A program made the position numbers and the translations under genes. From positions 1-64,000 of the forward strand of contig SUTV01000003.1 of assembly GCA_015152515.1 (NCBI GenBank): a stretch of DNA of 64,000 nucleotides, given 5' to 3'. This DNA comes from Cyanobacteria bacterium SIG29. GTDB taxonomy: Bacteria; Cyanobacteriota; Vampirovibrionia; Gastranaerophilales; Gastranaerophilaceae. The notes beneath the pieces were generated by a model. The model did no database searches. It was not told where the DNA came from and saw only the letters and a list, made by a program, of their open reading frames with translations. Shown here piece after piece: positions 21,452-45,487 of the stretch. How positions within the stretch are numbered: the stretch's first letter is position 1; every line of letters starts with the position of its first letter.

Positions 21452-22426
21452 TTATTCTTGGCTAATATTTTTCATCACTTCAATAGATTTTTTATATAAT
21501 TGTATGCGAGTCAAAGAACGAGGACTATCAAGACCAAGACACATTTTAAACGCTTTATTTTCATTTTGATATGCTTCTATCTCTTTTTCAAAATTATTTA
21601 TTGCTATATCAAAGAATAATTTCTTATCTATTTGAATACCTTGCTCTTCTTCAATATTTTTAATTCCAACTGCTATTTTTTCGTTAATATATTCTTCAAA
21701 GTCCGTAATTTTATTTTTTCTACACAACCAATCAAACATATCATTTTTGCCCATTTGCAAACGATTAAACGCAAGCTCTTCATACTGAGCTAAAGTATCT
21801 ATGAATGGTCTAGCTATGCTTTCTTCCAGAGCATGAACAGTAGCAGAAACAACACTTACCTGATTTAACGCTTCATCAATATCAGATTTATTTTTTTGAA
21901 TATAAGAATTAAATATGCCTAATTGAGTTGCATTTTCACAATCATATTGAAGAACATGAGTAAACTCATGAACAGAGTTAACAAATACCCATATATTTCC
22001 AAGCTCTTCTTTTAAAGTTTCAGTTCTAACATAGAAATTTCTATTTTGTTTTGGAATAAAAAGTTTATTTTCAGAACTATTATATGTTAATTCAACAGAA
22101 TAAAGTCCTTGAAGACTTTTTGAAAATAACAATTCTTTTGGTGCTTGATTTAAAGGTTTAACTTTTACATTTTTAGAATATTTTGAAATCGAACTTGAAA
22201 TATCTGAAATTGAAAATTTTGGAGAATTTAATTTTGTACTTAAATCCTTCATAAAAGAATCAACTTTTTGCTGACGAAGTTCAGCATTTGATAAAGCAGT
22301 AAAAGAAACATTTTTGGATTTTATAAAACAATCAGAAGCAGGTTGATTAAAAATAAAGCCTACTTCAGCTTTATTATTTGAACTTACTTGATTTTGACTA
22401 TAAAAATTTATGGGATTAATGTTCAT
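21452..22426 (-). CDS. Predicted zinc metalloprotease-like protein (HEFTH) with N-terminal tag
   Basis: 324 residues. It begins MNINPINFYSQNQ and has SFTAL near residue 41, like the N-termini of two other proteins in this window. Near residue 155 is VHEFTHVLQY, a HExxH zinc motif followed by ATVHALEES, a possible source of a third ligand. The rest is helical with no signal peptide or membrane segment. Glu and both His are intact, so activity is plausible. The family was not recognised. It may be exported by a non-Sec route, but that is inference. Ribosome site weak. Confidence 0.65.
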   Translation of the reverse strand: MNINPINFYSQNQVSSNNKAEVGFIFNQPASDCFIKSKNVSFTALSNAELRQQKVDSFMKDLSTKLNSPKFSISDISSSISKYSKNVKVKPLNQAPKELLFSKSLQGLYSVELTYNSSENKLFIPKQNRNFYVRTETLKEELGNIWVFVNSVHEFTHVLQYDCENATQLGIFNSYIQKNKSDIDEALNQVSVVSATVHALEESIARPFIDTLAQYEELAFNRLQMGKNDMFDWLCRKNKITDFEEYINEKIAVGIKNIEEEQGIQIDKKLFFDIAINNFEKEIEAYQNENKAFKMCLGLDSPRSLTRIQLYKKSIEVMKNISQE

Positions 22427-22484
22427 ATATACAACTCCAATTGTATAAAGCCCATAATTTATTTTTTTGCTGATTTAAAATTTT

Positions 22485-23372
22485 CTATTTTTTAACAAAC
22501 CTATCTCTTAAAATTATAAGCAAAACACCTGTAATTATTAAGATAATACCTAAAGCGCTATTTAATGATAAAACCTCACCAAATAACAACAAGCCAAAGA
22601 AAATTGCAGTTAATGGTTCCAATGCGCCTAAAATAGCTGTTGTTGTTGGACCAATTAATCTTATAGCCACATTAATTGTTTCAATAGAAATTATTGTTGG
22701 GAATATCGCAAGCCCTATTGTACAAGCTAAAACTTGCCAGTTATTTATAGATTGCAATTTTGTACAAAAATCAAGATTAAAAGCAAAAACTAAAACTCCA
22801 AATGACATTACATAAAAAGTCAGTTTTTCATATTTAATTTTCTTAATTGGTTCTAAATTCTTCACTAAAATAATATAAATCGCATACACTAAAGCCGAAG
22901 CCAATACCCATAAAACACCTGTTAAATTCAAAATCCCATTTATTCCACCATTAAGTAAAAATATTCCCAATAAGGCTATAAACATTGCAGATATTGAAGT
23001 TTTATTCAATTTTTCTTTAAAAAATATTGTAGAAATCAAAGCCACCATTATTGGATAAACAAACAAAATAGTACACGCTATTCCAGAATCTAAATATTTA
23101 AAAGACTCAAATAATGTAATAGAAGATAACGAGAATAATACAGCCATCACCGCTATACAAAAAAATTCTTTTAAAGTTAATTTTAAACTAACTTTTTTAA
23201 AAAATTTTAAACAAAACCCATAGATTATAGCTGCAAAAAGGTATCGATAAAATAGAATTGAATTTGTTTCCATACCCAATTTATACATTGGCAAGGCAAA
23301 AAGAGGATTTGTTCCATAGCTAATTGAGGCTAGTGCACCGTTTATAAAACCTTTAAACTTGTATTTTTTCAT
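22485..23372 (-). CDS. DMT-superfamily transporter (EamA)
   Basis: 295 residues in ten membrane segments made of two EamA halves, with LEPLTAIFFGLLLFGE in the second half as in most EamA proteins. These export amino acids, sugars or other metabolites; the substrate cannot be told. The start is at MKKYKFKGF with no clear ribosome site. It lies on the same strand as crcB upstream, 59 bases apart. Confidence 0.87.
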   Translation of the reverse strand: MKKYKFKGFINGALASISYGTNPLFALPMYKLGMETNSILFYRYLFAAIIYGFCLKFFKKVSLKLTLKEFFCIAVMAVLFSLSSITLFESFKYLDSGIACTILFVYPIMVALISTIFFKEKLNKTSISAMFIALLGIFLLNGGINGILNLTGVLWVLASALVYAIYIILVKNLEPIKKIKYEKLTFYVMSFGVLVFAFNLDFCTKLQSINNWQVLACTIGLAIFPTIISIETINVAIRLIGPTTTAILGALEPLTAIFFGLLLFGEVLSLNSALGIILIITGVLLIILRDRFVKK

Positions 23373-23431
23373 AGAAAAATTATATTACAAAAATCTACTT
23401 TAATAGGTATGTTTAATTTTAGCTTGAGACA

Positions 23432-23800
23432 CTAAAACATACGACCAAGCCCAATTCCCAAAAGCACAGCAACAACAGATAATACAACAGAAAGTATTGC
23501 ATAAACTATTGCAGTAATAGGAAAAGATTCTTGAATTAAAACAACTTCAAGAGCCAAAGCTGATAATGTTGAAAGCCCACCACAAAAACCACAAGTTAAA
23601 GCAAGTTTTATGTGAGGAGGAATACTTGTTTTACTTTGAAAATACGCATAACAAATACCAATAATAAAACACGCGACCATATTAACAGCCAATGTCGCAA
23701 AAGGCATATGGTGTAATTTAAAACCACAAAGTAATCCTGCAAAATATCTCAATACAGAACCAATTCCACCACCAATAAATATCGCTATTACATTTAACAT
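23432..23800 (-). CDS. crcB: Fluoride channel FluC/CrcB
   Basis: About 122 residues from the ATG at 23800 (MLNVIAIFIGGGIGSVLRYF); an in-frame ATG at 23818 lacks support. Four membrane helices, with the family signature GFCGGLSTLSAL and GGxxGxxxRY near the start. It exports F- as an antiparallel dimer. There is one copy only, so it would be a homodimer. No fluoride riboswitch was visible in the short upstream gap. Confidence 0.9.
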   Translation of the reverse strand: MLNVIAIFIGGGIGSVLRYFAGLLCGFKLHHMPFATLAVNMVACFIIGICYAYFQSKTSIPPHIKLALTCGFCGGLSTLSALALEVVLIQESFPITAIVYAILSVVLSVVAVLLGIGLGRMF

Positions 23801-23872
23801 AACCAAATTATAATACAAAATCTTTTTTAAGATAAATACAATATGGTATTATTAAAAAAAGAGGAGCGTGTT

Positions 23873-25210
23873 ATGAACAAGATAATAAAACTATTAATTT
23901 TATTCCTAATATTTGCAATCAGTAATATGCAAAGTTATGCGCTAGATAATATTCAAAAAGAAGAATTTGTAAAACAATTAATGGAATATTCATTAATTCT
24001 TTCCAAAGATAATAAAGTTACAACAAGCAAAGAACATGATTTAAAACCGTTATTAAATAACTTGGATAATTCTAACTTAGAAAACGCTTATGCATTTGAC
24101 AAAACAGTAGGTAGAGCAGCAGCGTGGCTTTATGTTTATGGAAATGCAAAATATGTTTATGCTGATACAATTTCAAAACCAGCAATTAAAATTTTAGAAA
24201 AACATAATATTAAATATGAATACAAAAATTTAGTTTCAGAAATTCCAAATAAAAATAAAACCGATATTTGTCCATTTGAAAAATTAATTAAAAATGTAAA
24301 AGATGAAACAACTGCTTATGGTTTAATTTATGCAAAAACATATCCTGATACTTCTATTGTTTATTTCACTCCGAATATAACAGAAGAAAATCTAGTTAAA
24401 ATATATAAAACTCTAAATAGAGATTTAGCTGGAAATGTTGCAATAAAAGTTCATTCTGGCGAACCAAACGGGAAACACTTTTTACAACCTGAATTTATGA
24501 AAGATTTAGTTCATTATGTAAAAGGAACAATTGTAGAATGCAACACTGCATACGCAGGCAGAAGAATAAAAACTGAAGACCATAAAAAAGTTATGGAAGA
24601 ACACGGTTTTACTAAAATCGCCAAAACTGACATTATGGACGAAGATGGAGAAATGGAATTGTTAATTCCAGATGGAAAACAAATAAAAGTGAATTATGTA
24701 GGTTCACACTTAAAAAATTATGATTCAATGCTTGTTTTATCACACTTTAAAGGACATCAAATGGGTGGTTTTGGCGGAGCGTTGAAAAATATTTCAATAG
24801 GTATCGCTTCATCACACGGCAAAGCATATATTCATGGTGCTGGCGAAGTTGAAAAATTGTGGACTTGCGAACAAAATAAATTCTTAGAAGCTATGGCAGA
24901 TGCGTCAAAATCAATAGTTGACTTTTTCAAAAACAACATTGCATACATTAATGTAATGGCTAATTTATCAATAGATTGTGATTGTAATGGTCACCCAACA
25001 CCTCCTGAAATGGCAGATATAGGTATTTTAGCCTCTTTAGACCCAGTAGCACTTGATAAAGCTTGTGTTGACTTGGTTTACAACTCAAACGACGAAGGCA
25101 AAAAATCATTAATAAAAAGAATAGAATCAAGAAATGGCACTCATATTCTAACAAGTGCTGAAGATTTAAAAATTGGTACAACAAAATATAAACTTATAGA
25201 ATTAAAATAA
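23873..25210 (+). CDS. Secreted DUF1893-DUF362 fusion protein
   Basis: 445 residues from ATG 23873 (GAGGAG upstream; a frame extension to 23843 is not needed). Signal peptide to about residue 25. Residues 30-135 match DUF1893: FDKTVGRAAAWLYVYG, YADTISKPAIKILEKH and KTDICPFEKLI, normally a stand-alone cytosolic protein. Residues 145-440 match DUF362 (FKGHQMGGFGGALKNISIG, ASLDPVALDKACVDLVY), often found with Fe-S domains; here Cys occurs in SIDCDCNGH. Function is unknown for both. The export signal on a DUF1893-DUF362 fusion is unusual. Ends at an intrinsic terminator. Confidence 0.82.
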   Translation: MNKIIKLLILFLIFAISNMQSYALDNIQKEEFVKQLMEYSLILSKDNKVTTSKEHDLKPLLNNLDNSNLENAYAFDKTVGRAAAWLYVYGNAKYVYADTISKPAIKILEKHNIKYEYKNLVSEIPNKNKTDICPFEKLIKNVKDETTAYGLIYAKTYPDTSIVYFTPNITEENLVKIYKTLNRDLAGNVAIKVHSGEPNGKHFLQPEFMKDLVHYVKGTIVECNTAYAGRRIKTEDHKKVMEEHGFTKIAKTDIMDEDGEMELLIPDGKQIKVNYVGSHLKNYDSMLVLSHFKGHQMGGFGGALKNISIGIASSHGKAYIHGAGEVEKLWTCEQNKFLEAMADASKSIVDFFKNNIAYINVMANLSIDCDCNGHPTPPEMADIGILASLDPVALDKACVDLVYNSNDEGKKSLIKRIESRNGTHILTSAEDLKIGTTKYKLIELK

Positions 25211-25228
25211 ACCTTTTTATGTTCATAC

Positions 25229-25272
25229 TAAAAGCTTTAGACACTTTTTACTCGTGTTTAAAGCTTTTTTAA
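25229..25272 (+). terminator. Intrinsic terminator
   Basis: AAAGCTTTAGACAC pairs with GTGTTTAAAGCTTT (one mismatch) and is followed by a T-run, after the DUF1893-DUF362 gene. Confidence 0.75.
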
Positions 25273-25352
25273 TTTTCAATTGAATATTATGTCCATTTTT
25301 GTCGCACTTATATTTCATAATAAAAATATTGAAATAAGATAGGAGCAAAAAA

Positions 25353-25940
25353 ATGGACGAAGTTAGATTACTAATTAAAGGCAAAGAACGTGAAACATAT
25401 TCAATTCACTATTCTTGTAATGGTTTTTATTATGGAGATTCAGTAGCACCAACTATTTGTGCTATTGCTATGACAAATTTAAAAACTTTAGATAAACACG
25501 TTTTTGCCTTGCATAATTACATAAATGAAGGCAAATGTTTGATAGAGGCAGAAAAACAGCTTTTAACAGATTTTGCAAATTTCTTTAATAAACTGAAAAA
25601 TCCAATACTTATGCACTGGAAAATGGATAATTTAGAATATGGGTTTAAAGCAATTGTAGCAAGATGTGAAAACTATGGCATTTACGACATTTCTTTCAGC
25701 GAAACTAAAAATATAAACCTAGATAATTATTTTTACAGAGGTTTACATGCGACATTGGAATTTTATAAATGCAGTTCTTTAGATATTTTAGGTGGCAAAG
25801 ATGAAATCATTTGTTTTAATAAAAGAAATTTTAATGCTGTTAAATTATCAACTATTGCAAAGTCCGTAGGACTTGTAAACTTAATAAATTATGCAATAAA
25901 AAATGGCATTGATTTTAATACAAAAGAAGAGGATGAATAA
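25353..25940 (+). CDS. Conserved-looking hypothetical protein, 195 residues
   Basis: 195 residues, AGGAGC before the ATG. Soluble alpha/beta protein with no signal. A mid segment (LLTDFANFFNKLKNPILMHW then YGFKAI) faintly resembles RNase H-fold proteins that predict a strand ending in HW, but catalytic acids were not identified and this is only a hint. It has its own leader and is followed by tdk after 150 bases. No function is proposed. Confidence 0.7.
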   Translation: MDEVRLLIKGKERETYSIHYSCNGFYYGDSVAPTICAIAMTNLKTLDKHVFALHNYINEGKCLIEAEKQLLTDFANFFNKLKNPILMHWKMDNLEYGFKAIVARCENYGIYDISFSETKNINLDNYFYRGLHATLEFYKCSSLDILGGKDEIICFNKRNFNAVKLSTIAKSVGLVNLINYAIKNGIDFNTKEEDE

Positions 25941-26017
25941 AGATTTCCTTTATTAAAAAACCTATAAATAAATCAGTTTATATAAATACACACTTGCACG
26001 CAAAAGCATTCAAACCA

Positions 26018-26026
26018 TGTTATAAT
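26018..26026 (+). promoter_or_regulatory. Extended -10 promoter for tdk
   Basis: TGTTATAAT, an extended -10 element, about 65 bases before the GTG of tdk. No good -35 box. The leader holds a small hairpin (TTGCAT / ATGCAA). Confidence 0.5.
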
Positions 26027-26090
26027 CGTGGTCGAAGGTTGCATTTTAAGTTATGCAATAAATATATAGAAATTATCGGGGAAGAGAATA

Positions 26091-26708
26091 GTGCAGGGAT
26101 ATTGTTTTGAATTAATTACAGGACCAATGAGTTGCGGTAAAACAGAAGAACTTTTAAGACGAATAAAAAGATGCATTATTGCTCGTAAAAAAGTAAAAGT
26201 TATTTCTCCTCAAATTGATACAAGAGAACAAGGTGACTATATAAAATCTAGAAATGGTTTATGGCTAGACGCTGTAAAAGTAAAAGATTCTATGCAAATT
26301 TTAAGCGTAGTTAGTGACGACGATACAATTGTAGCCATAGACGAATTACAGTTTTTTGACTCTAATATAGTAAAAGTTATTGAAACATTAATGGCACAAG
26401 GCAAAAAGGTTATTGGAACAGGATTAGAACTAGATTTCAAAGGTGATACATTTGGTTCAATGCCACAATTAATGTGTATAGCAACAACAGTAGATAAACT
26501 TCACGCAGTTTGTATGAAATGCGGTTCAGACCACGCAACAAGAACTCAACGTTTAATTGACGGCAAACCTGCAGATAAAAATTCACCATTAATTATGATT
26601 GGTGGAGATGAAACATACGAAGCTCGTTGTATAAAATGCTGGGAACTTCCAGACGCAAAATCAGAAGAGAAAAAATCTAACGTTCTTAAATTTTTATCAA
26701 GAAGTTAA
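26091..26708 (+). CDS. tdk: Thymidine kinase (type II)
   Basis: 205 residues from a GTG start (GGGGAAGAG upstream). Phosphorylates thymidine for salvage. P-loop GPMSCGKTEELLRR at residue 11, Walker B/catalytic AIDELQFF near 85, and two Cys pairs (CMKCG, CIKCW) of the zinc lasso domain. Length and order match bacterial TK1-like enzymes. Confidence 0.93.
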   Translation: MQGYCFELITGPMSCGKTEELLRRIKRCIIARKKVKVISPQIDTREQGDYIKSRNGLWLDAVKVKDSMQILSVVSDDDTIVAIDELQFFDSNIVKVIETLMAQGKKVIGTGLELDFKGDTFGSMPQLMCIATTVDKLHAVCMKCGSDHATRTQRLIDGKPADKNSPLIMIGGDETYEARCIKCWELPDAKSEEKKSNVLKFLSRS

Positions 26709-26741
26709 ATATAAATTTTTAATACATCAATTTTCAAAATT

Positions 26742-27062
26742 ATGAAAAAAGAATTAGAAAAAATAAAAGAAAAGTGTTTATTATGTCAAAAATGTTCTTT
26801 AGCTAAGACTAGAACAAATATAGTTTTTGATGATGGATTACCTAATCCAAAATTGATGTTGATAGGTGAAGCACCTGGTTTTTATGAAGATAAACAAGGT
26901 AAGCCTTTTGTTGGTAAAGCAGGACAACTCTTGGATAAGATTTTTGCTTCAGTAGGTCTAACAAGAGAAAAACACGTGTATATTTGTAATACAATAAAAT
27001 GTCGAGGCTTTCACACCTACGCACTTAGTGCTTCGGATACAGGCTCACTCATTTCACTTTAG
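26742..27062 (+). pseudogene. Truncated type-4/5 uracil-DNA glycosylase
   Basis: Residues 1-88 match the N-terminal half of Fe-S uracil-DNA glycosylases: Cys cluster [30 protein letters not shown] (active-site motif), and ICNTIKCR. Homology stops at about base 27005, exactly where the family continues with PPGNR-like sequence. The frame then runs 18 unrelated codons to a stop at 27062. The last cluster Cys and the catalytic C-terminal HPS motif are lost, and the rest of the gene is not found downstream. It is therefore a 3'-deleted remnant, joined to GC-richer DNA at 27006-27118. An intact copy may exist elsewhere. Confidence 0.8.
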
Positions 27063-27118
27063 TTCAATGGTTCACTTTGTATCGCGACCAAGGTCGCTCG
27101 TTTAAAACACCCAAATTC
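27006..27118. other. GC-richer sequence of unknown origin at the glycosylase break
   Basis: Base composition is clearly less AT-rich than neighbours. GATACA (near 27036) and TGTATC (near 27078) form an inverted pair, followed by GCGACCAAGGTCGC. No coding potential beyond the read-through tail. It could be a degenerate mobile or REP-like element. Confidence 0.5.
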
Positions 27119-27119
27119 A

Positions 27120-27160
27120 GCCATTAAAAAAGAGTCCTTAACGGACTCTTTTTTAATGGC
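27120..27160. terminator. Long bidirectional terminator hairpin
   Basis: A perfect 18-base stem (27120-27137 with 27143-27160) around TTAAC; the core is AAAAAAGAGTCC / GGACTCTTTTTT. It can stop transcription from either side. Confidence 0.88.
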
Positions 27161-27268
27161 GGGAACGCCAAATAGGGACCTCTCCTCTACGGCTCATTCT
27201 TCGCCTAGAGTATTGGTCACGAGGCTCTTCACCAAGTTCTCGCCTCTTGAAAATCCTATCTTTTGACA
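27161..27268. other. Structured, GC-richer intergenic stretch
   Basis: Between two terminators and with no gene. It holds CTCTA-GGC / GCC-TAGAG and GAGGC / GCCTC inverted repeats. On the minus strand it ends in CGTTCCCGCCA, like a tRNA 3' end, just before the 27120-27160 terminator. It could be a small RNA or tRNA remnant; no known RNA family was recognised. Confidence 0.4.
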
Positions 27269-27269
27269 A

Positions 27270-27302
27270 TAAAAAAACAGACCCTAAGGTCTGTTTCTTA
27301 TT
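27270..27302 (-). terminator. Terminator of tRNA-Asp
   Basis: On the minus strand AAACAGACC pairs with GGTCTGTTT and is followed by a T-run, directly after the tRNA-Asp CCA end. Confidence 0.85.
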
Positions 27303-27307
27303 GTAAA

Positions 27308-27385
27308 TGGCGGGACCGACGAGGCTCGAACTCGCGACCTCCTGCGTGACAGGCAGGCACTCTAACCAAACTGAGCTACGATCCC
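27308..27385 (-). tRNA. tRNA-Asp (GTC)
   Basis: Full cloverleaf on the minus strand: acceptor GGGATCG / CGGTCCC, anticodon stem CCTGC with loop CTGTCAC (anticodon GTC), T-arm with GTTCGAG, discriminator G, and an encoded CCA (27308-27310). Confidence 0.96.
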
Positions 27386-27397
27386 AACTGCAAAATT

Positions 27398-27426
27398 ATT
27401 ATAAGCAGAACAAAAAAAAATTGCAA
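27398..27426 (-). promoter_or_regulatory. Promoter of tRNA-Asp
   Basis: Minus strand TTGCAA (27426-27421), 17-base spacer, TATAAT (27403-27398), ending 12 bases before the mature 5' end. Confidence 0.8.
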
Positions 27427-27445
27427 GCAATAAAATCAAATTTAT

Positions 27446-27473
27446 TTTACTAATATTTTTTTTACACTATAAT
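27446..27473 (+). promoter_or_regulatory. Promoter of glyS
   Basis: TTTACT (27446-27451), 16-base spacer, TATAAT (27468-27473), about 33 bases before the glyS start; divergent from the tRNA-Asp promoter. Confidence 0.65.
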
Positions 27474-27505
27474 TTTCTTATACACACAATATTCAAGAGG
27501 GAATT

Positions 27506-29533: not shown

Positions 29534-29551
29534 ATAATATTCAATAATAAT

Positions 29552-29583
29552 AAAAAGGCTGATTATTAAATCAGCCTTTTATA
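29552..29583. terminator. Bidirectional intrinsic terminator
   Basis: AAAAGGCTGATT pairs with AATCAGCCTTTT around ATTA; overlaps the last codons of the convergent HEAT-like gene. Confidence 0.85.
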
Positions 29584-32434: not shown

Positions 32435-33241
32435 TTAATTTACAGATCTTATATTTAAAATAGAATCTGGATTAAATACAGCAAAACAAGATTCAAATCT
32501 TCCTGTTGAACCATACGCCATATCAATACCTAAATCATTTACAAGATAGTTACGAGCATATTCATTAATAATGCGAGTAGAAACCTCTGATTCTGCCATT
32601 CCAGTAGCATAATCACGAGAATTCAAACCAATAAAATTTGACAATTTAGTAACGATTCCAGACTCCATTATTTTTTCAAAAAATGACTGTTTCATTCTTG
32701 CACATTTGCCTGTACAATCAGCCATTAAAACGGCTGAAGAATATTCTCTAGCACCACCTTCAGATGGTGAAAAATAAAAACCTGGTCCAAGTTTTGTTCT
32801 AGAAATTTTTTCTGGATTAAATCCATTTTGTCTGATTTGTTCAATTGTTTCTGTACCAAAAGTTGCGTGGTAAAGAGATAAAGAAACATCATCAACACCA
32901 TTTATAGAAGAATTAATAGCCTCTTTAACTGTCATATTTTGTTTTTCACCACGAACATCAGTTTCAATATTAAATTTAGTATTATCTAAATATTCAACAA
33001 TTTGCGGATTTAATTTTCCATCTTTATCAAAACAAGCCGCTAAAACTTTACTTTTATATTCATTTTTTAACTCATCTTGTTTCTGCCAAGGAATACAAAA
33101 ATTAGAAGCATCTGCATAATCACGAGGATCAGGCAATCCTTGAATCACACCTTTAAAACTAGTTTTTGTAGGCATTATAGAATTATTTTTAAAATGTGCA
33201 TTTGAAGAATAGCTTCTAAAACTTATTGGAGAAATGTTCAT
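32435..33241 (-). CDS. ADP-ribosyltransferase-like (PARP/ART fold) protein with N-terminal tag
   Basis: 268 residues. It starts MNISPISFRSYSS with TSFKGVI near residue 27, like two other proteins here. ACFDKDGKLNPQ near residue 70 matches one unit of the giant repeat protein. From residue 120: LYHATFGTETIEQIRQNGF and LGPGFYFSPSEGGAREYS recall the ART fold (His in YH-T, Tyr in GFYFS). The C-terminal strand (CFAVFNPDSI) sits where PARPs have E-Y-I-V-Y; Cys or Ser replaces the catalytic Glu, as in some mono-ADP-ribosyltransferases and inactive members. No signal peptide. The assignment is by pattern only; it could be an effector, toxin or degenerate enzyme. Confidence 0.55.
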   Translation of the reverse strand: MNISPISFRSYSSNAHFKNNSIMPTKTSFKGVIQGLPDPRDYADASNFCIPWQKQDELKNEYKSKVLAACFDKDGKLNPQIVEYLDNTKFNIETDVRGEKQNMTVKEAINSSINGVDDVSLSLYHATFGTETIEQIRQNGFNPEKISRTKLGPGFYFSPSEGGAREYSSAVLMADCTGKCARMKQSFFEKIMESGIVTKLSNFIGLNSRDYATGMAESEVSTRIINEYARNYLVNDLGIDMAYGSTGRFESCFAVFNPDSILNIRSVN

Positions 33242-36751: not shown

Positions 36752-36770
36752 TCCAAGTCAAACAAAAATT

Positions 36771-36804: not shown

Positions 36805-36811
36805 CATGGGG

Positions 36812-36840
36812 TTGAAATCTTTTTTTGTTCTTGTTATATT
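36812..36840 (+). promoter_or_regulatory. Promoter of rpsU
   Basis: TTGAAA (36812-36817), 17 bases, TATATT (36835-36840). Confidence 0.7.
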
Positions 36841-36885
36841 TCTATCATAAAGATAATTAAAATTAATGAAGGTGGTGAAAAGCTA

Positions 36886-37059: not shown

Positions 37060-37068
37060 AATAAATTT

Positions 37069-37096
37069 AAAAGGAGCTTAATAGCTCCTTTTTTTA
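37069..37096. terminator. Intrinsic terminator (bidirectional)
   Basis: AAAAGGAGCT pairs with AGCTCCTTTT around TAAT, followed by T-run; between rpsU and the convergent repeat gene. Confidence 0.88.
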
Positions 37097-37099
37097 ATA

Positions 37100-38542
37100 C
37101 TAATTTTGTTTAAATAAACCGTAAATATTCATAAAATTTTTAAATCTAGATACCATTGATGGATTAACATCACGGCTTATTGTTGTATTTGTTTCAACTC
37201 CAACAGGTTTTACAGTACTTGGTGAAGTTCTCCAAAATGGAGTAGCCGTTGTATCATCAATATTAATTATTTTTCCATCCGGTGTTATAATCTGTTTTTT
37301 CTTAGAAGCAGATGTTTTTAAACGACCTTCTGGCTTTACTTCAGGTTCAACTGCTGGTTTTGGAGCAGGTTTTACTTCTGGATTCACTGTTTGCTCAACT
37401 ACTGGTTGCACTTCAGGTTCAACAGTTGGTTTCACAGCAGGTTTCACTTCTGGATTTACTGTTTGTTCAACTACCGGTTGTGTTTCGGATTCAACTACTG
37501 TAGTTGTTTCTGATTTAGCTTTTGGTTTAACAGCTGGTTGTGCCTCAGCTTCAACTGTTGGTTTAGCTTCAGATTTTGGTTTTGATTTTTTTATTGATTT
37601 TATTTTCTTTTTAGCACCTGGTTTTGTTTCTATTTTTCTTTTTGGCGGAGCAATCGGTTGCGCTTCAGGTTCAACTACAGAAGCTGTTTCAGGTTTTACT
37701 TCTGGTTGAACAGCCGGTTGTGTTTCAGATTTAACAGCCGGTTTTGCCTCAGCTTCAACTGCTGGTTTTGGAGCAGGTTTTACTTCTGGATTCACTGTTT
37801 GTTCAACCACAGGTTGCACTTCAGGTTCAACAGTTGGTTTTGCTTCAGATTTAACAACTGGTTTTGCTTCAGGTTCAACTGTTGGTTTAACAGCCTTTTT
37901 CTTTAATGCAGGAAACCAACCAGAAACTTTTGTACCTATAGAAGAAAAACTATTTGCTATATTTTTAGGAGCAGATGTCACACATTTTGCACTTGCTTTT
38001 AAAGCAGACATTCCTTCAACATTAACTCCATTAGCTTTTAAAGCAGATTTTGCACCAGCAACAGAAGCACCAACTGCGAAAGTACCTGTGCCCATTTGTT
38101 GCCAAGCTTGTTTTGCTTGGTCATCTGTTGTTGCTTTTGCTTGTTTATAAATACCTTTTCCTATTTGGATACCGCCACCAATCAAGCCAGCAGCAACCAT
38201 AACAGGAGCAGCAGCACCACCAGTCACAGCAATTAAAGCAGCACTCGCCGCAACTGCCACAGCTGTTATTGCCATATTTTTTGGCGATGCAAATATATTT
38301 TTTATTGGAGCAATAAGCCCTTTTCCGAAATTGACAACTTTTTCTTTAAAGCTTATTTTACCATCATCTGATGAATTTTTATTTTGCACATTATTAGCTT
38401 CAACTGGTGTTTTTGCATAAGTGTCTTTTGATTCACCAGCCAAAACAGAATATCCAAACGCTTTTCTTTCTGCTTGAACGCCCTTCATTCTTTGCAAAAT
38501 AGCTTCTTTGTTATTCATTAAATTATAATCTGAAAAAGGCAT
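37100..38542 (-). CDS. Pro/Val/Glu/Lys-repeat protein with Gly/Ala hydrophobic region
   Basis: 480 residues. Residues 1-85 are polar, 86-130 are hydrophobic Ala/Gly-rich (AITAVAVAASAALIAVTGGA, then GLIGGGIQIGKGIY), perhaps a hairpin in the membrane. Residues 218-425 are degenerate repeats of x-Pro-Glu-Val/Ala-Lys/Gln-Pro-x-Val (EPEVQPVVEQTVNPEVKP), an extended, periplasm- or wall-spanning type of sequence, as in TonB-like linkers. The C-terminus is basic with TPDGKIINIDDTTATPFW. No signal peptide. Function unknown; an envelope-spanning or adhesin-like role is only a guess. Confidence 0.72.
   Translation of the reverse strand: MPFSDYNLMNNKEAILQRMKGVQAERKAFGYSVLAGESKDTYAKTPVEANNVQNKNSSDDGKISFKEKVVNFGKGLIAPIKNIFASPKNMAITAVAVAASAALIAVTGGAAAPVMVAAGLIGGGIQIGKGIYKQAKATTDDQAKQAWQQMGTGTFAVGASVAGAKSALKANGVNVEGMSALKASAKCVTSAPKNIANSFSSIGTKVSGWFPALKKKAVKPTVEPEAKPVVKSEAKPTVEPEVQPVVEQTVNPEVKPAPKPAVEAEAKPAVKSETQPAVQPEVKPETASVVEPEAQPIAPPKRKIETKPGAKKKIKSIKKSKPKSEAKPTVEAEAQPAVKPKAKSETTTVVESETQPVVEQTVNPEVKPAVKPTVEPEVQPVVEQTVNPEVKPAPKPAVEPEVKPEGRLKTSASKKKQIITPDGKIINIDDTTATPFWRTSPSTVKPVGVETNTTISRDVNPSMVSRFKNFMNIYGLFKQN
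37340..37900 (-). repeat. Direct repeats encoding the Pro-Glu-Val-Lys-Pro segment
   Basis: A stretch of about 80 bases near 37350 recurs near 37758 almost unchanged (both include GGTTTTGGAGCAGGTTTTAC), with many shorter copies between. Copy number is likely to vary between strains. Confidence 0.75.
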
Positions 38543-38674
38543 AAAAATCCTCGCAATTTTTACTATATTAAAATAAAGGATTTTTAACTAAAAAAATTGA
38601 CTTTTTGAAGCATATTTATACAATTTATTTACTTTTTTGTTGCGTGCATATATCTGATTTAGTAAAATATACTT

Positions 38675-40141
38675 ATGAATTCAAAGACAATAATCACCAT
38701 AATAACGACTTTAATATATGCGCTAATAACATTAATAGCCGTATTAAATCACGAAATATGGGCAGATGAAGCACAAGTTTGGCTATTATGTAAACACTTA
38801 TCCATTCCAGAATTATTTACACACCTTCATAATGAAGGACATCCATCATTAATGTACTTAATAACTATGCCTTTTGCAAAAATATTTCCAGATATTATTG
38901 CTATGCAAATTATCTGTTGGTTTATAATGTGCATTAGCGTATTTGTACTATTTCAAAAGTCACCATTTCCATTAATAGTAAAATACGCAATTATTTCTAG
39001 TGCTGGATTTTTATATTTTTTCCCTGTTATAGCAAGAAGTTATTCTATAATTCCAATATTAGTATTTTTAACTGCAATTCTATATTCTAAAAGAAAAGAA
39101 AATCCAATTTTATATGCTACAATTCTTTTTTTACTAGCAAATACGCACATTATAATGCTTGGATTTGTTGGAATTCTAACTTTATTTCATATTATTGAAA
39201 ACATCAAAGAAAAAAGTTTTTCAAAAAAAAACATCATATCACTTGTTATTATGATATTAGGAATATTAGCTGTAATTTTCCAATTACACGATTCCATTTC
39301 AAGTAATTCTTGTATTAATACAAAAGGACAAGACATTATAGCTAATATTTTTAAAATAGTAACTCTATTTTTTGTAAATACATATAACTATCAAATAATT
39401 GCAACCGATACAATTCCAAATCCTATAATAGATTTATCAGCAATAATTTTATTAATTATAAGTTTTGTATTATTAACAATAAATTTATTTGTAAGCAATA
39501 AAAAATTATTTATTATTCTTCTTTTAAGTATTGGATTTCAATTTTCCATCTACATTTTTGCATACAATGCATACATTTATGTAACTAGAATTTTTTCAGC
39601 ATACATTATTTTACTATTTTGTTTTTGGATTTTATACAAAGATAATTCTTTTAATGAAAACAACACAATTTCTAAAAAAAGAACAACTACAATTCTACTT
39701 TCTATATTTTTATTTTTAAGCACTTTTAATGGAATAAACTACTATATTCTAGATTTAAAAGGCAATTATAGTAGTGCTAAAGATACTGCAAATTTTATAA
39801 GAAAAAATATAGATATTAATTCTTCAATATTATTAATTAGAAACGAAGCATATTCTATTTCATTGGCTTACGAACTAGGTAATGATGCAAATCTATATTC
39901 AATTACAAGAGATAACCATTTAAAATATGTAACTTGGGATGAAAAAGTAAGCAAAAAAATGTCGTGCGAAGATTGGTTAGAATATTGCAAAAAAATATCT
40001 AATAATTATGAAAATATCTATATTATAAGTACCAAAAGAACAATGAATGAAGAACTAGATAATGATTTTGAGCACATTTATACTGCACCAAAAACATTTG
40101 ATAGTGGCGAACAACACTTTATTCATCGCTACAAAAAATAA
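38675..40141 (+). CDS. GT-C-type membrane glycosyltransferase-like protein
   Basis: 488 residues with about 11 membrane segments. After the first helix comes IWADEAQVWLL, the acidic (D-E) loop motif of GT-C/PMT/ArnT-type enzymes that use polyprenyl-phosphate sugars, then NEGHPSLMYLI. The C-terminal 110 residues are soluble. No SD of note; the start is chosen at the first ATG. It probably adds a sugar to an envelope polymer or protein. No partner genes are adjacent; the acceptor is unknown. Confidence 0.8.
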   Translation: MNSKTIITIITTLIYALITLIAVLNHEIWADEAQVWLLCKHLSIPELFTHLHNEGHPSLMYLITMPFAKIFPDIIAMQIICWFIMCISVFVLFQKSPFPLIVKYAIISSAGFLYFFPVIARSYSIIPILVFLTAILYSKRKENPILYATILFLLANTHIIMLGFVGILTLFHIIENIKEKSFSKKNIISLVIMILGILAVIFQLHDSISSNSCINTKGQDIIANIFKIVTLFFVNTYNYQIIATDTIPNPIIDLSAIILLIISFVLLTINLFVSNKKLFIILLLSIGFQFSIYIFAYNAYIYVTRIFSAYIILLFCFWILYKDNSFNENNTISKKRTTTILLSIFLFLSTFNGINYYILDLKGNYSSAKDTANFIRKNIDINSSILLIRNEAYSISLAYELGNDANLYSITRDNHLKYVTWDEKVSKKMSCEDWLEYCKKISNNYENIYIISTKRTMNEELDNDFEHIYTAPKTFDSGEQHFIHRYKK

Positions 40142-40145
40142 TTAA

Positions 40146-40763
40146 TTAAATATGGTTTACAGTAAATTGAAGGAAATTACCAATCAAATTTTCATTCCAA
40201 ACTTGTACTTTATTAGGAACAGATAAAACACAAGGTGTAAAATTCCAAATATATTCAATTCCTGATTGAACAAGGAAATCAGTAACTTCTTGCGCAAATG
40301 TTCTTGGAACAGTTAAAATTGCTATTTTAACGTCATATTTTCCTACCATATGAGGAATTTCATTCAAATGATAAACTTCAACACCATTAACCTTTAACCC
40401 AATTTTTGAAGGAGCATTATCAAACAAAGCAGAAATCTTAAAACCATAAGCTTCAAAATTATCATATTTTGCAAGAGCCATACCTAAATTACCAGCACCA
40501 ACGATAAAAGCTCTTTTTACAGTTTTGAATTTTAAAGTTTCTTCGATTAAAATTTTTAATTCTTTAACTTTATAACCTACTTTACACTTTCCTTTGTAAT
40601 TTAAAAGTGCAATGTCTTTTCTAACCTGTGTATTATCAATATGCAGTAAATCAGCAATCTGCGGACTTGAAATATATTCAATGTCTTTTTCAATATAATC
40701 AGCCAAAATACTATGATACAAAGTTAATCTATTAATTACTTTATCCGAAAGAATTTCTACCAT
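40146..40763 (-). CDS. rex: Redox-sensing transcriptional repressor Rex
   Basis: 205 residues. N-terminal winged helix (residues 1-75: VINRLTLYHSILADYI, SSPQIADLLHIDNTQVRKD), then a Rossmann domain with FIVGAGNLGMALAKY near 86 and a C-terminal swapped helix. It senses NADH/NAD+ and represses fermentation genes. It lies just downstream of adhE, a classic Rex target, but an intrinsic terminator separates them. No clear TTGTGA-n8-type site was found upstream of adhE. Confidence 0.95.
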   Translation of the reverse strand: MVEILSDKVINRLTLYHSILADYIEKDIEYISSPQIADLLHIDNTQVRKDIALLNYKGKCKVGYKVKELKILIEETLKFKTVKRAFIVGAGNLGMALAKYDNFEAYGFKISALFDNAPSKIGLKVNGVEVYHLNEIPHMVGKYDVKIAILTVPRTFAQEVTDFLVQSGIEYIWNFTPCVLSVPNKVQVWNENLIGNFLQFTVNHI

Positions 40764-40776
40764 TTAATCAAAACCT

Positions 40777-40811
40777 CAAAAAAGAAGAGGAACGAGTTTT
40801 CGTTCCTCTTC
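40777..40811 (-). terminator. Terminator of adhE
   Basis: GAAGAGGAACGA (40784-40795) pairs perfectly with TCGTTCCTCTTC (40800-40811) around GTTT; on the minus strand a T-run follows. Lies between adhE and rex. Confidence 0.9.
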
Positions 40812-40824
40812 AACTTTTTTATAA

Positions 40825-43476
40825 CTACACTACACCGTTAAATGCATCAATGTAGATTTTCTTAATATCAGCTAAGAATGGATATACTGGATTTGCACCG
40901 GTACATTGGTCATCATAAGCCAATTCAACTAGCTCATCTAAATTGTCCATGAAAGTTTGTTCATCAACACCAAATTCTTTAATAGAATTTGGAAGATTAA
41001 TAGCTTTCATTAAACGATCAACAGAAGCTAATAACAATTCGACTTTTTCATCGTCATTTTTACCACCTAAACCAAGTTCATCAGCAATTTGACCAAATTT
41101 AATTTTAGCACATGGGAACTTGTATTGAGGGAAGGTTGCTTGTTTCTTAGGAGCATCAGAAGCATTATATTTCATAATTTGTCTGATTAATAATGCATTA
41201 GCTACACCGTGAGGAATGTGATACATTGCACCAAGTTTGTGAGCCATAGAGTGACATAAACCTAAGAATGAGTTAGAGAATGCCATACCAGCAATAGTTG
41301 CTGCATAGTGCATTTTTTCTCTAGCAATAGGATCGTTAGCACCTTCATTATATGATCTTTCTAAGTATTTGAAGATTAATTTAATAGCTTCTAATGCATT
41401 AGAATTTGTAAAGTTTGTAGCCATACAAGAAACATATGCTTCAATTGAGTGAACTAATGCGTCGATACCTGAAGCAGAAGTTAAACCTTTTGGCATACTA
41501 TCAACATAATTAGGGTCTACAATTGCCATATTAGGAGTTAAAGCATAATCTGCAATTGCGTATTTAACTTGAGTTTCATCATCAGTGATAATAGCAAATG
41601 GAGTTACTTCTGAACCTGTACCTGAAGTTGTAGGAATAGCAACCATAATTGCTTTTTTACCCAATTCAGGAATAGCACAAATTCTTTTTCTGATATCCAT
41701 AAATCTCATTGCAATATCTTCAAAATTTGTTTCTGGTTGTTCATACATTAACCACATAATTTTTGCTGCGTCCATTGGAGAACCACCACCTAAAGAAATA
41801 ATTACATCTGGTTCAAATGGTCTTAATACAGCCATTGCTTGATTAATTGTAGATAAAGTTGGATCTGGTTTTACATCAAAGAATACTTCGTGTTCAATAT
41901 CAATTTCATCTAAAACTTTAGTGATTTGTTCAACTGCGCCAGAATTAAATAAGAATCTATCTGTTACGATAAATGCACGTTTTTTACCTGCTAATTCACG
42001 AAGAGCTAAATCTGTAGCGCCTCTTTTAAAGTAAATTTTAGATGGAACCTTGAACCATAACATATTTTCTCTCCTTTCAGCAACGGTTTTGTAGTTCAAT
42101 AAATTTTCAACGCCTACGTTACCTGAAACAGCATTTTTGCCCCAAGAACCGCAGCCAAGAGTTAAAGATGGTTCTAACTTAAAGTTATATAAATCACCAA
42201 TACCACCTTGTGAAGATGGAGAGTTAATTAAAACTCTGCATGCTGGCATTTTTTCAGCATAATGATCAATTCTTGTTTTAGAACGTTCGTCTGTATAAAG
42301 AACTGCAGTATGGCCAGCACCACCTTTAGAAACTAATTGATATGCCATTTCAGCTGCTTCATCATAATCAGCTGCTCTGTACATAGATAAGATTGGAGAT
42401 AATTTTTCTCTTGAGAAAGGATCTTCCCAATCAACAACAGGTCTTTCTGCCAATAAAACTTTTGCATCAACTGGAGTTTCAAATCCTGCTAATTTAGCAA
42501 TTGTATGAGCAGTTTGACCAACAATATCTGGGTGAGCTGTACCACGTTTTGGATCGATAAATGGTAAATCAATCATTTTTTGTTGTTCAGCTTCATTTAC
42601 TAGATAAGCACCTCTGTATTCAAATTCTCTTTTAACTTCTTCATATACGCTATCAACAACGATAACTGATTGTTCAGAAGCACAAATCATACCATTATCA
42701 AATGTTTTAGACATAAGAATTGAAGATACAGCCATTTTAATATCTGCTGTTTCATCAATAACTGCTGATGTATTACCAGGACCAACACCTAATGCTGGAT
42801 TACCAGATGAATAAGCAGCTTTAACCATGCCAGGACCACCAGTAGCTAAAATACAATCAATAGAAGCTGATGTCATTAAACCATTAGTTAATTCTAATGA
42901 TGGAACGTCAATCCAACCAATAATACCTTCTGGAGCACCAGCTTTAACAGCTGCATCTAAAACCAATTTAGCAGCAGCAATTGTACATTTTTTTGCTCTT
43001 GGGTGTGGAGAGAATATAATACCATTTCTAGTTTTTAAAGCTAATAAAGCTTTAAAAATAGCAGTTGATGTTGGGTTTGTTGTTGGAATAACACCAGCAA
43101 TAACACCTAAAGGTTCTGCTACGATTTTAATACCATTTGGTTTATCTTCTCTAATAATACCGCATGTTTTAGCATTTTTATGTTTATTATAAATATATTC
43201 GGAAGCAAAGTGATTTTTAATAATTTTATCTTCTAATACACCCATGCCTGTTTCTTCTACAGCCATTCTAGCAAGAGGAATACGAGCTTTGTCTGCTGCT
43301 GTTGCTGCAGCTTTAAAAATAGCATCAACTTGTTCTTGAGTAAAAGCTTCATATTGTTTTTGAGCATTTTTAACTCTAGAAATCAATGCTTCTAATTGTT
43401 CCAATGTTTCTACAACACCAGAATTGTTGTAAGCCTTTTCCAAGTCTTCAATTTGTTTTGAACTTTTAGTTGTCAT
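40825..43476 (-). CDS. adhE: Bifunctional acetaldehyde-CoA / alcohol dehydrogenase
   Basis: 883 residues. N-terminal aldehyde dehydrogenase (1-440) with Cys in NGMICASEQS and EPLGVIAGVIPTTNPTS; C-terminal iron-dependent alcohol dehydrogenase (455-883) with GGGSPMDAAK, ATTSGTGSEVTPF-like IPTTSGTGSEV and His ligands in GLCHSMAHKLG and IPHGVANALL. It turns acetyl-CoA into ethanol using two NADH, and forms spirosomes. Length matches the family. It marks a fermentative metabolism; rex, its likely regulator, follows. Confidence 0.97.
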   Translation of the reverse strand: MTTKSSKQIEDLEKAYNNSGVVETLEQLEALISRVKNAQKQYEAFTQEQVDAIFKAAATAADKARIPLARMAVEETGMGVLEDKIIKNHFASEYIYNKHKNAKTCGIIREDKPNGIKIVAEPLGVIAGVIPTTNPTSTAIFKALLALKTRNGIIFSPHPRAKKCTIAAAKLVLDAAVKAGAPEGIIGWIDVPSLELTNGLMTSASIDCILATGGPGMVKAAYSSGNPALGVGPGNTSAVIDETADIKMAVSSILMSKTFDNGMICASEQSVIVVDSVYEEVKREFEYRGAYLVNEAEQQKMIDLPFIDPKRGTAHPDIVGQTAHTIAKLAGFETPVDAKVLLAERPVVDWEDPFSREKLSPILSMYRAADYDEAAEMAYQLVSKGGAGHTAVLYTDERSKTRIDHYAEKMPACRVLINSPSSQGGIGDLYNFKLEPSLTLGCGSWGKNAVSGNVGVENLLNYKTVAERRENMLWFKVPSKIYFKRGATDLALRELAGKKRAFIVTDRFLFNSGAVEQITKVLDEIDIEHEVFFDVKPDPTLSTINQAMAVLRPFEPDVIISLGGGSPMDAAKIMWLMYEQPETNFEDIAMRFMDIRKRICAIPELGKKAIMVAIPTTSGTGSEVTPFAIITDDETQVKYAIADYALTPNMAIVDPNYVDSMPKGLTSASGIDALVHSIEAYVSCMATNFTNSNALEAIKLIFKYLERSYNEGANDPIAREKMHYAATIAGMAFSNSFLGLCHSMAHKLGAMYHIPHGVANALLIRQIMKYNASDAPKKQATFPQYKFPCAKIKFGQIADELGLGGKNDDEKVELLLASVDRLMKAINLPNSIKEFGVDEQTFMDNLDELVELAYDDQCTGANPVYPFLADIKKIYIDAFNGVV

Positions 43477-43575
43477 AATGTTCGGCGTTCCTTTCGTGAA
43501 TAAAATCTCTATTTACAATAGACCATAAAATTGCATGAAAGTCAATTAAATCAGATATTAAAAATTTATAAAGAT

Positions 43576-43612
43576 AAGAGCCACCACATACAAAGATGTG
43601 ATGGCTCTTTCT
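43576..43612 (-). terminator. Likely terminator of the GH77 gene
   Basis: AAGAGCCA-CACAT pairs with ATGTG-TGGCTCTT (one mismatch); T-content follows on the minus strand but is not a clean run. Confidence 0.6.
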
Positions 43613-43627
43613 CTTAAATACTATAAT

Positions 43628-45487
43628 TTATGCGTTACCCAAAACTCTATCTGCATCCTTTGTTGTCATAGGACCATCTTGTTTTAAAATATTTGCATAA
43701 TAATCTAATCTATTTGTTAATACAGAACCTCTGCCATATTGTTTAGCTTTTAAAGCTTTACTTAATGCATCAGCACTATTTAAGCCTCTACCTTTTGCCA
43801 AGTTTTGATGATATTGTTTTTCAAAATCTTGAGGTGCACGATATGACCAATTGCCTTCTTTTGTATTTGGAGTATTTATTCTACGTCTTGAACCAAAAAT
43901 ATCTGGCAATGTAGCAAATTGATTTTTAGTTGTAAACATTTCTGCATATATAGCTTCTGATAATTTAGAATCAGATTGTTCTAGTTCATATTGAGGAAGA
44001 TATAAATCATGTGCTAAATACCAAGCACGATTTTTACCATTTTCAACTTGTTCAAGCAAACTATAATCATCATGTGTTCCAGGTCCGATTGTATAATCAC
44101 CAGGTTTCATGTTTTGATATTTATTGTCGCTTTTTGATTCATAATATCTTACACGACCCCAGCTATCACTACCATATCTTGTAATATGAATTAATGTGGT
44201 ACCTAAACCTTTAACTGCGTCTAATGAATCATAAGAGTTACCACCTAATAATTCCAAGAAAATTTTATCATGTGGAACTTTATTTTTATCAGCTGCACTT
44301 AAAACAATATCTTTAATGATTTTTCTACCATTGTTAGGAACATATGGTTGATAATCAATTTTATGACCTAATTTATTACCATTATTATCAAAAGTTGGTT
44401 TACCTTTATTTGTCCAAGGTTCACAAATTAATGGATTTATTAATTGCCAAGCAGCATCAATTCTTACACCATTGTAACGTTTAAAGAATAAATCAAATTT
44501 ATTATATAAAAGATCACCTGCATCACCATCTAATTTTGAAAAATCAATAGCTGGTGACCAACAAGAATATTTACCATCGCCAATATCACAACCAAATTCA
44601 TAAGTTGGATAGAATGCTGATTTATGAGCCCAAAAATCTTTTTGAGAAAAACCGATTTGGCAATCGCCATAAATATCAATTCCTTTAGAATTAAAATTAG
44701 CTTTAGATTCTTTTTGTTGTTTATCTGCTATAAATTGAACAAATTGTTCAAAATCAACTACATTATGACCTTTTTCATTTTTAACTTGTTTTAATTCCGC
44801 AATTCTAGCTTTGTCGCCTTCTTTTGTTGCGAATACATTTTGATCGCGTTGTGGCCAAGATTTAATTTCATAAGAACCATTAGCGGTAGCAACAGCTTCA
44901 TATAAAGCATCTTTTTCTACCCAGTAAGCATTTTCTTTTTTGAATGTTTCAAAATCTTTCTTTAATTGTGAACTTGGTGGAAGTTCCATAAAACGATCAA
45001 ACGCTTTTGCTAACATAGCCTTTTGTCCATCTTGTGCGAAAACATTATCATAATCTACACTGTCATGGTTTGAAACTCTTGTCATATAAGAAGATTTCAA
45101 ATCAGCAGCACTTAGTAATTGACCATATTCTTTATCTTGAAGTTTATTCAAATCAATAATATGCATACCTAAAGAAAAAGCAGTACCTGAATATGGTGAA
45201 CGAACATAATTTGAAATTTCACCTTGTGGTTGTAATTGGATAGAATTTACACCACACATTGTTTTTAATAATTCAGCCATTTTCTGTGCATCTACAGAAA
45301 AACTTGTACCAATACCTGTATCATTTTTTGAACTAGGAACACTAAAATCAAAAATTGTTGCAGTAGTTTTATCTGTTCCTAATTGTTTTCTAGCTTCAGA
45401 TTGAAGCTTTTCATATTCTTTTTTTTCTTTTGTTGTAAGTGCTCTACCAAAAGACAACGATGATTGAATGCTTGCAATTTTCATCAC
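43628..45487 (-). CDS. Divergent GH77 4-alpha-glucanotransferase with N-terminal tag
   Basis: 619 residues. Its core matches amylomaltase motifs: FKRYNGVRIDAAWQLINP (nucleophile Asp), KIFLELLGG (acid/base Glu), IGPGTHDDYS (TGTHDN-like) and RINTPNTKEGNWSYR. Such enzymes transfer alpha-1,4-glucan chains in glycogen or maltodextrin use. It begins MMKIASIQSSLSFGRAL, with the SF-G tag seen in two other proteins here. The N-terminal half holds large insertions. No glycogen genes are next to it. Some motif residues differ from MalQ, so specificity is uncertain. Confidence 0.78.
   Translation of the reverse strand: MMKIASIQSSLSFGRALTTKEKKEYEKLQSEARKQLGTDKTTATIFDFSVPSSKNDTGIGTSFSVDAQKMAELLKTMCGVNSIQLQPQGEISNYVRSPYSGTAFSLGMHIIDLNKLQDKEYGQLLSAADLKSSYMTRVSNHDSVDYDNVFAQDGQKAMLAKAFDRFMELPPSSQLKKDFETFKKENAYWVEKDALYEAVATANGSYEIKSWPQRDQNVFATKEGDKARIAELKQVKNEKGHNVVDFEQFVQFIADKQQKESKANFNSKGIDIYGDCQIGFSQKDFWAHKSAFYPTYEFGCDIGDGKYSCWSPAIDFSKLDGDAGDLLYNKFDLFFKRYNGVRIDAAWQLINPLICEPWTNKGKPTFDNNGNKLGHKIDYQPYVPNNGRKIIKDIVLSAADKNKVPHDKIFLELLGGNSYDSLDAVKGLGTTLIHITRYGSDSWGRVRYYESKSDNKYQNMKPGDYTIGPGTHDDYSLLEQVENGKNRAWYLAHDLYLPQYELEQSDSKLSEAIYAEMFTTKNQFATLPDIFGSRRRINTPNTKEGNWSYRAPQDFEKQYHQNLAKGRGLNSADALSKALKAKQYGRGSVLTNRLDYYANILKQDGPMTTKDADRVLGNA

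Follow-up and report, generated by a model that had tools for sequence, protein, structure and literature searches.

Here we examine the first 64,000 nucleotides (the window, by which we mean the whole of that stretch) of a 190-kb contig, C1, from Cyanobacteria bacterium SIG29, a member of the order Gastranaerophilales whose genome assembly, G000, holds 1.54 Mb in 13 contigs and is 82.5% complete. An earlier note on this DNA had proposed that three predicted enzymes encoded in the window share an N-terminal start and a Ser-Phe (SF) motif; all three motifs are present where it placed them, and the translations agree. The shared N-terminus is real and extends well beyond these three proteins. 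From sequence, we tentatively predict that this N-terminal tag is an export signal for a flagellar-type (type III) apparatus, a reading that we regard as a serious possibility, short of a probability. The three proteins and their tags are as follows:

21452-22426, minus strand: HExxH protein, 324 aa, starting MNINPINF... (translation; HExxH recognised by eye)
22292-22426, minus strand: tag of the HExxH protein, residues 1-45 (MNINPINF ... SFTAL, with SFTAL at 41-45; translation; passes the scoring rule defined below)
32435-33241, minus strand: ART-like protein, 268 aa, starting MNISPISF... (ART-PolyVal, E = 0.064, below cut-off)
33149-33241, minus strand: tag of the ART-like protein, residues 1-31 (MNISPISF ... 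SFKG, with SFKG at 28-31; translation; passes the rule)
43628-45484, minus strand: GH77 4-alpha-glucanotransferase, tagged copy (Pfam PF02446, E = 7e-35; fold match)
45440-45484, minus strand: tag of the GH77 enzyme, residues 1-15 (MKIASIQSSLSFGRA; SF at 11-12; translation, orthologue alignment and AlphaFold2 model)

The catalytic identities originally given to these proteins hold to different degrees. That of the GH77 enzyme is firm, given its Pfam match and its fold, for which the first 33 Foldseek matches in the PDB are GH77-type enzymes (TM 0.55-0.67 by query length). The ART-like protein has a weak Pfam match, below cut-off, and a sequence search of the PDB up to E = 1 gave no relative; the HExxH protein, assigned by eye, has no Pfam family above cut-off (best E 0.05). 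The GH77 start was corrected to the ATG at 45484, one codon inside the listed GTG, and its tag fails the rule because the residue two positions after the Phe (F+2) is Arg. In the AlphaFold2 model of this one protein (mean pLDDT 83.9), residues 1-12 have pLDDT below 50 and residues 1-17 form no helix. Inspection of the three window tags revealed no hydrophobic core of the Sec type, bearing out the remark that the proteins lack a Sec signal. Elsewhere in the window, a Pro/Glu/Val/Lys-repeat protein (37100-38542) has ISFKEKV near residue 63, a possible variant of the tag.

A two-part motif at protein N-termini

The tag is bipartite. Part 1 is a hydrophobic start, M-[KNR]-[IV]-[SNQ]-x-[IV]; part 2, lying from a few to about 55 residues further on, is [ST]-F followed by G, A or S within two residues. 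Among 38 motif-chosen proteins of G000, G018 and G045 the Phe falls at residues 8-66, and in some carriers the motif comes as early as residues 4-8, leaving hardly any spacer. The spacer contains 14.3% Asn, against 6.1% in 1081 untagged proteins, with Ser likewise enriched and Asp, Leu and Ile depleted. Ser codons in 22 rule matches comprise 9 AGY and 13 TCN, and the use of both codon families indicates that selection acts on the motif as protein.

Enrichment was assessed at gene starts predicted by a simple gene caller over 864-873 kb of G000, with proteins shorter than 60-100 aa (the limit varies by analysis) left out. An M.I..I start opens 32 of 823 predicted G000 proteins, compared with 22 of 4415 internal Met residues. 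Start and second half, the latter taken as [STAN]F[KGSTQR][GAS] within 68 residues, co-occur in G000 with an odds ratio of 4.25 (p = 5.7e-5), or 2.06 (p = 0.01) for a looser start; further along, at residues 69-133, a second half shows no association with the start (odds ratios 0.78 and 1.08). The joint motif is found in 18/746 G000 proteins versus 6/3137 internal-Met segments (p = 4.5e-9). It shows no significant excess in the smaller samples from the order (G018 2/211, G045 1/89, G120 0/158, G013 1/203), nor in the small samples from outside it (class relatives 0/109; phototrophs 0/84 and 1/83).

A broader scoring rule asks for an early hydrophobic residue with no acid at residues 2-7, a polar and acid-poor spacer from which any hydrophobic core is excluded, and [STNA]F[KGTSQRN][GASN] within 75 residues. 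It was written after G000 had been seen, together with the SFxG lists of G018, G120, G013 and the first 100 kb of G045, while 400 kb of G045 was still unseen. Having been shaped on G000 and on a first look at parts of other order genomes, it yields optimistic p-values; and as it excludes hydrophobic stretches by design, it provides no independent Sec test for the whole carrier set. The rule picks out 42/793 G000 proteins versus 18/2989 internal-Met segments (p = 2.4e-16; shuffled mean 8.8), and the excess is also significant in two genomes of the same family, G018 (11/225 versus 3/901 internal) and G045 (17/455 versus 15/1694). No excess is seen in two class relatives (2/119, internal 1/296; a small sample with neither match convincing by eye) or in two phototrophs (0/89, internal 2/198, and 1/91, internal 4/212). 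The enrichment looked for in related genomes was significant in G000, G018 and G045, and not significant in G120, G013 or the small samples from outside the order; the few tags in G120 and G013 that convince by eye indicate that the tag reaches another family of the order, where it is rarer in the sampled DNA.

The rule is loose: of 41 G000 matches of at least 80 aa, 25 were accepted by eye and 16 appeared ordinary or unclear. We count 36 carriers in G000, namely the 25 accepted matches and 11 proteins that fail the rule, the window GH77 with its SFGR among them. A set of 61 carriers, picked by eye, combines 50 of 86 rule matches with 11 rule-failing proteins, the remaining 36 matches being excluded as ordinary or unclear.

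Two further scoring schemes were discarded. A position-specific model placed 60/823 G000 proteins over threshold versus 3/2551 internal segments, but this is an in-sample figure, and the model did not stand out in G013, G120, G349, G489, G455 or G406. A DNA pattern for part 1, run over 386 genomes, gave 25 hits versus 5 in the control for G000; since some phototrophs are equally lopsided (G287, 13 versus 1), the pattern is no map of the tag's range and was dropped as evidence.

The two anchors are conserved in orthologues. We aligned the window GH77 with 29 relatives, the best-scoring of those retrieved and not all of its matches, which are 38-77% identical over the match and represent two families of the order. 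All 30 sequences have I or V as residue 3 and a Phe at 11-15, followed by Arg at F+2 and by Ala or Ser at F+3. As residue 6, 28 of 30 have I, V, L or M and the other two A and K; the residues between the anchors vary freely. F+2 and F+3 may be part of the enzyme and not of the tag. The second GAPDH (GAPDH2, described below) keeps M[KN][VI]S[AS][VI] and F[RKS]G in four genomes, with a five-residue gap between the halves. Among unrelated carriers only the short anchors recur; we infer that the tag looks less like one inherited N-terminal domain than like a short linear motif added repeatedly, which departs from the earlier proposal of a common descent of the N-terminus. What survives of the lineage-specific signal proposed with it is an N-terminus that is non-Sec and apparently lineage-limited, that precedes domains unrelated to one another and that orthologues retain.

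Close to part 2, a third element, D[TE]F[VTS], is 4.3-fold enriched in G000 (p = 0.001, uncorrected for the six patterns tried); none of the other four sets reaches significance at 0.05. An aldose 1-epimerase-like protein (L248:4878-6089; assigned by eye) has a tag-like N-terminal extension containing DTFTKS.

Tagged enzymes and their untagged counterparts

The tag stands before complete, ordinary domains, and many of its carriers are orphans. Others are diverged second copies of enzymes that are also present in an untagged form. GAPDH is present as an ordinary untagged copy in all nine genomes compared and as a longer second copy in four of them, tagged in 4/4. Adenylate kinase likewise has an ordinary copy in 9/9 genomes, with a second (Adk2) in G000 only, where about 50 extra N-terminal residues bear the tag. 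By eye the active-site residues of GAPDH2 and Adk2 look intact, GAPDH2 retaining its active-site Cys and His, which we take to be the catalytic residues. Glycogen synthase has an ordinary copy in 8/9 genomes and clearly tagged long copies in G000, G128 and G013. Six further long glycogen-synthase relatives, in frames of 823-987 aa and from six of nine order genomes (L219-L224), have a polar N-terminus followed by a transmembrane-like stretch; that of G000, the sole one scored, passes the rule.

For GH77, the window enzyme matched 38 named loci, the closest 79% identical and nearly all the next ones in metagenome-assembled genomes of Candidatus Gastranaerophilales. Among named relatives of the tagged type, all 21 whose starts were read carry the tag (L083 and L094, where the gene start is not covered, were left out), and it is absent from 11 that are more distant (L096-L106, mostly Gastranaerophilales or Melainabacteria). 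The other GH77 of G000 (C11, L059:13049-14965) also starts without it. Adjoining that gene is a tagged small protein of unassigned family (L059:15038-15481). An extension that sits on one copy of an enzyme pair, keeps its anchors and leaves their spacing free looks like a targeting signal, and some form of targeting by the tag is, in our judgement, quite probable.

Five carriers in G000 belong to alpha-glucan metabolism: GlgC-like, GlgA-like, GlgB/TreZ-like, GH77 and alpha-amylase-like. The GH77 and GlgB-like ones have SFGR, fail the rule and were counted by eye. Further G000 carriers are a DEAD/DSHCT helicase, a DHH phosphoesterase, a weak kinase-like protein and a borderline LysM protein; those of the G000 carriers other than GAPDH, Adk, GlgA and GH77 that were scanned against NCBIfam stayed below its cut-offs. 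Carriers in G045 include a GH77-like protein and an M16-type peptidase. The 61 carriers matched 54 Pfam families and 61 untagged proteins matched 126, a difference suggesting that fewer known domains occur in carriers; the untagged set was taken by hand from 100 random G000, G018 and G045 proteins, excluding very short ones and two presumed carriers, and is not cleanly random. In two carriers a lipobox-like or hydrophobic stretch follows the tag (L033:11192-14080 and L048:15663-16475, the latter with the borderline LysM). Two adjacent tagged proteins at L089:16925-20411 have NUMOD/I-HmuI-like domains, assigned to the pair by eye.

The composition of the carrier set lends little support to the suggestion that these proteins form a set of effectors. 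Few look like effectors (the ART-like and HExxH proteins, a weak kinase-like and a weak C39-peptidase-like one); the best annotated are the alpha-glucan enzymes, GAPDH, adenylate kinase, the helicase, the DHH phosphoesterase and the M16-type peptidase. We also considered a link to defence and rejected it, as each of the 25 PADLOC families listed matched one of the 61 carriers, mostly through generic helicase models, and clustering is weak.

Candidate export machinery and competing explanations

A gene of the FHIPEP (FlhA/SctV) family is present in 286/286 order genomes searched, flagellin-less ones included, which makes a flagellar-type export apparatus the leading candidate route; flagellin was found in 39/107 order genomes and not in G000. 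An operon stretch in G000 encodes FliI, FlhA, FliH, FliF, FliE, a lytic transglycosylase and rod proteins, with one of its ten genes unmatched. FHIPEP proteins were typed by score in 23 chosen genomes, four of the 13 from the order having been chosen for want of a full FlhA. A type scoring about 870-890 bits occurs in 7/13 order genomes and 1/10 class relatives, and one of 661-747 bits in 9/13 and 10/10, respectively. A solitary protein resembling the FlhA cytoplasmic domain (FlhA-C-like; frame 486-519 aa) occurs in 13/13 order genomes and 0/10 class relatives and is, as far as sampled, the best match to the range of the tag; this is an association only, as is the overlap in range between tag and export apparatus. 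The G000 protein (L052:16488-17951, C13) has an extra N-terminal region and adjoins two tagged genes; others lie at L299, L148 and L273-L275. The model of this FlhA-C-like protein has a low pTM (0.38), and its identity is assigned from profiles.

FliP was detected in 8/9 genomes tested, including all four without full-length FlhA, and in G045 its neighbours read by eye as FliO, FliQ and FliR. We had taken the loss of FlhA in G045 to refute a type III route, and withdrew this in view of these genes. A shortened FlhA relative in G045 (L302:10178-11035) covers part of the cytoplasmic domain only.

Taken together, we propose that the tag would be a two-part, unstructured address tag of the Gastranaerophilales which, placed before complete enzyme domains, withdraws a second set of proteins from the shared cytosolic pool. 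The flagellar-type apparatus, which the order retains even where flagellin is missing, may read it as an export signal, and the soluble FlhA-C-like protein of the order might act as the receptor; we infer the role of the tag as a localisation signal, and the type III route and this reader are putative. In its boldest form, which we think unlikely to hold in every part, the proposal is that the order sends about 4-5% of its proteins (in the genomes with a shown excess) elsewhere by this tag, including a shadow alpha-glucan pathway (GlgC-, GlgA- and GlgB-like proteins and GH77) that has a GAPDH and an adenylate kinase to itself. The tag would be read by a soluble derivative of the FlhA cytoplasmic domain that is linked to a flagellar apparatus turned secretion or sorting machine, and the destination would be another cell or a membraneless body in the bacterium.

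Several observations weigh against export by the type III route. G120 and G013 each have two full FlhA genes, yet their excess of rule matches is not significant (3/175, internal 4/598, and 2/217, internal 7/706), and class relatives hold FlhA (10/10) yet show no tag excess. G045, G122, G219 and G239 lack full-length FlhA, and of these G045 retains the tag, although it also has FliP and the neighbours read as FliO, FliQ and FliR. The search for FliP found none in G000, an incomplete assembly, and no gene of the G000 export operon has a clear tag (the transglycosylase scored in the in-sample model only). Tagged genes cluster weakly (p 0.025-0.10), and the borderline-LysM and lipobox-like carriers would be odd as type III cargo. 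Finally, the activities of GlgC, GlgA, Adk, GAPDH and the helicase depend on nucleotides, a requirement in keeping with a cytosol, bacterial or host, and not with the gut lumen; were the destination the cytosol of another cell, this need would be no obstacle to export.

An intracellular destination is nearly as likely as type III export. Here the tag would bring the second enzyme set, together with some membrane proteins, to a body or patch of membrane inside the bacterium, such as a glycogen body, where a scaffold would hold them by the I/V and F anchors; nothing would be exported. This is consistent with the alpha-glucan set formed by five annotated G000 carriers, with the cytosolic substrates of these enzymes, GAPDH and Adk, with the active-site residues apparently intact in GAPDH2 and Adk2, and with the retention of the tag in G045, where full FlhA is missing; the LysM and lipobox-like carriers, too, would fit an N-terminus that remains inside. 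No scaffold or shell came up, though no search was aimed at either, and the carriers do not form one pathway, given the helicase, DHH, NUMOD-endonuclease-like, peptidase and ART-like proteins among them. Furthermore, of 62 carriers (the set of 61 plus one), 11 have a predicted transmembrane stretch whose N-terminal side is richer in Lys/Arg in only 4, so that an inside N-terminus is not evident.

Proteolysis can be controlled by motifs at the N-terminus, and the tag could instead act on the protein itself as a protease-adaptor or chaperone handle or as a regulatory or solubility leader, leaving location unaffected. Its short, polar nature, the disorder in one model and the motifs at residues 4-8 in some carriers would suit such a role, but a tag on one copy of a pair and absent from the other fits targeting better, and the conservation of the GH77 anchors across two families also weighs against it; we consider this reading rather unlikely. 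Export by another route, for instance a contractile injection system with N-terminal cargo signals, has a precedent in the N-terminal signal peptides that load cargo into the Photorhabdus virulence cassette, as described in the accessible part of that report (PMC11495950), and appears improbable here. Chance resemblance in an AT-rich proteome rich in Asn, Lys and Ile was a reasonable concern, since three proteins alone make a weak case; moreover, the G000-trained model was undistinguished in G013 (4/197 versus 4/544 internal) and G120 (3/165 versus 3/522), and the 16 ordinary or unclear matches among 41 exceed the 5-9 expected from controls. For G000 chance is refuted by the joint motif (p = 4.5e-9) and by the rule (p = 2.4e-16; 42 versus 8.8 shuffled), and conservation in GH77 and GAPDH2 orthologues argues against it as well, leaving it a negligible explanation.

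Resemblance to known systems and biological meaning

The closest parallel among known signals is that of early flagellar export substrates, which the accessible text of PMC8983047 describes as an extreme N-terminal hydrophobic element plus a docking (gate recognition) motif. Like this rod and hook signal, the tag consists of two short elements set apart from each other, of which the first is hydrophobic and opens the protein, and the apparatus genes are present in Gastranaerophilales; as in type III substrates, it appears unstructured and free of a Sec core, judging from spacer composition and one GH77 model. Unlike it, the tag precedes enzymes and orphans and not rod or hook proteins, and its second element is [ST]F near G/A/S with the Phe at 8-66. 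With a Sec signal peptide it shares an N-terminal position and a start in M-K or M-N; the missing hydrophobic core in the window tags and an Asn/Ser-rich spacer set it apart. Encapsulation peptides of microcompartments, according to the part of PMC12339742 available, are short helices that a disordered linker connects to enzymes of core metabolism. The tag resembles these in being a short peptide with a disordered linker on such enzymes and differs in that the GH77 tag (one protein) is modelled without the short amphipathic helix, or any other.

Chlamydiae offer a precedent for the export of glycogen enzymes, which we count in favour of export: GlgA, for example, is sent into the host cell, as stated in the accessible portions of PMC3722199 and PMC7935935. 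Both cases involve glycogen-metabolism enzymes with a role beyond the ordinary cytosolic pool; in ours, the enzymes are diverged second copies with a visible shared N-terminal motif, and their secretion is predicted. Our literature search, which covered partial texts and left most subscription journals outside its reach, found no published description of such a tag and no report of secretion of glycogen enzymes in Gastranaerophilales.

The Gastranaerophilales are a common gut order whose cell biology is, to our knowledge, little known. Should it prove to be an address signal, the tag would identify at once dozens of proteins per genome with a common destination. Partial flagellar gene sets of gut members have been read as loss of function or genome reduction, as far as the accessible parts of PMC4040986 and PMC3787301 go; if our reading is true, it would give a reason for flagellum-less members to retain flagellar export genes, and would add a further case of storage-glucan enzymes with a second location.

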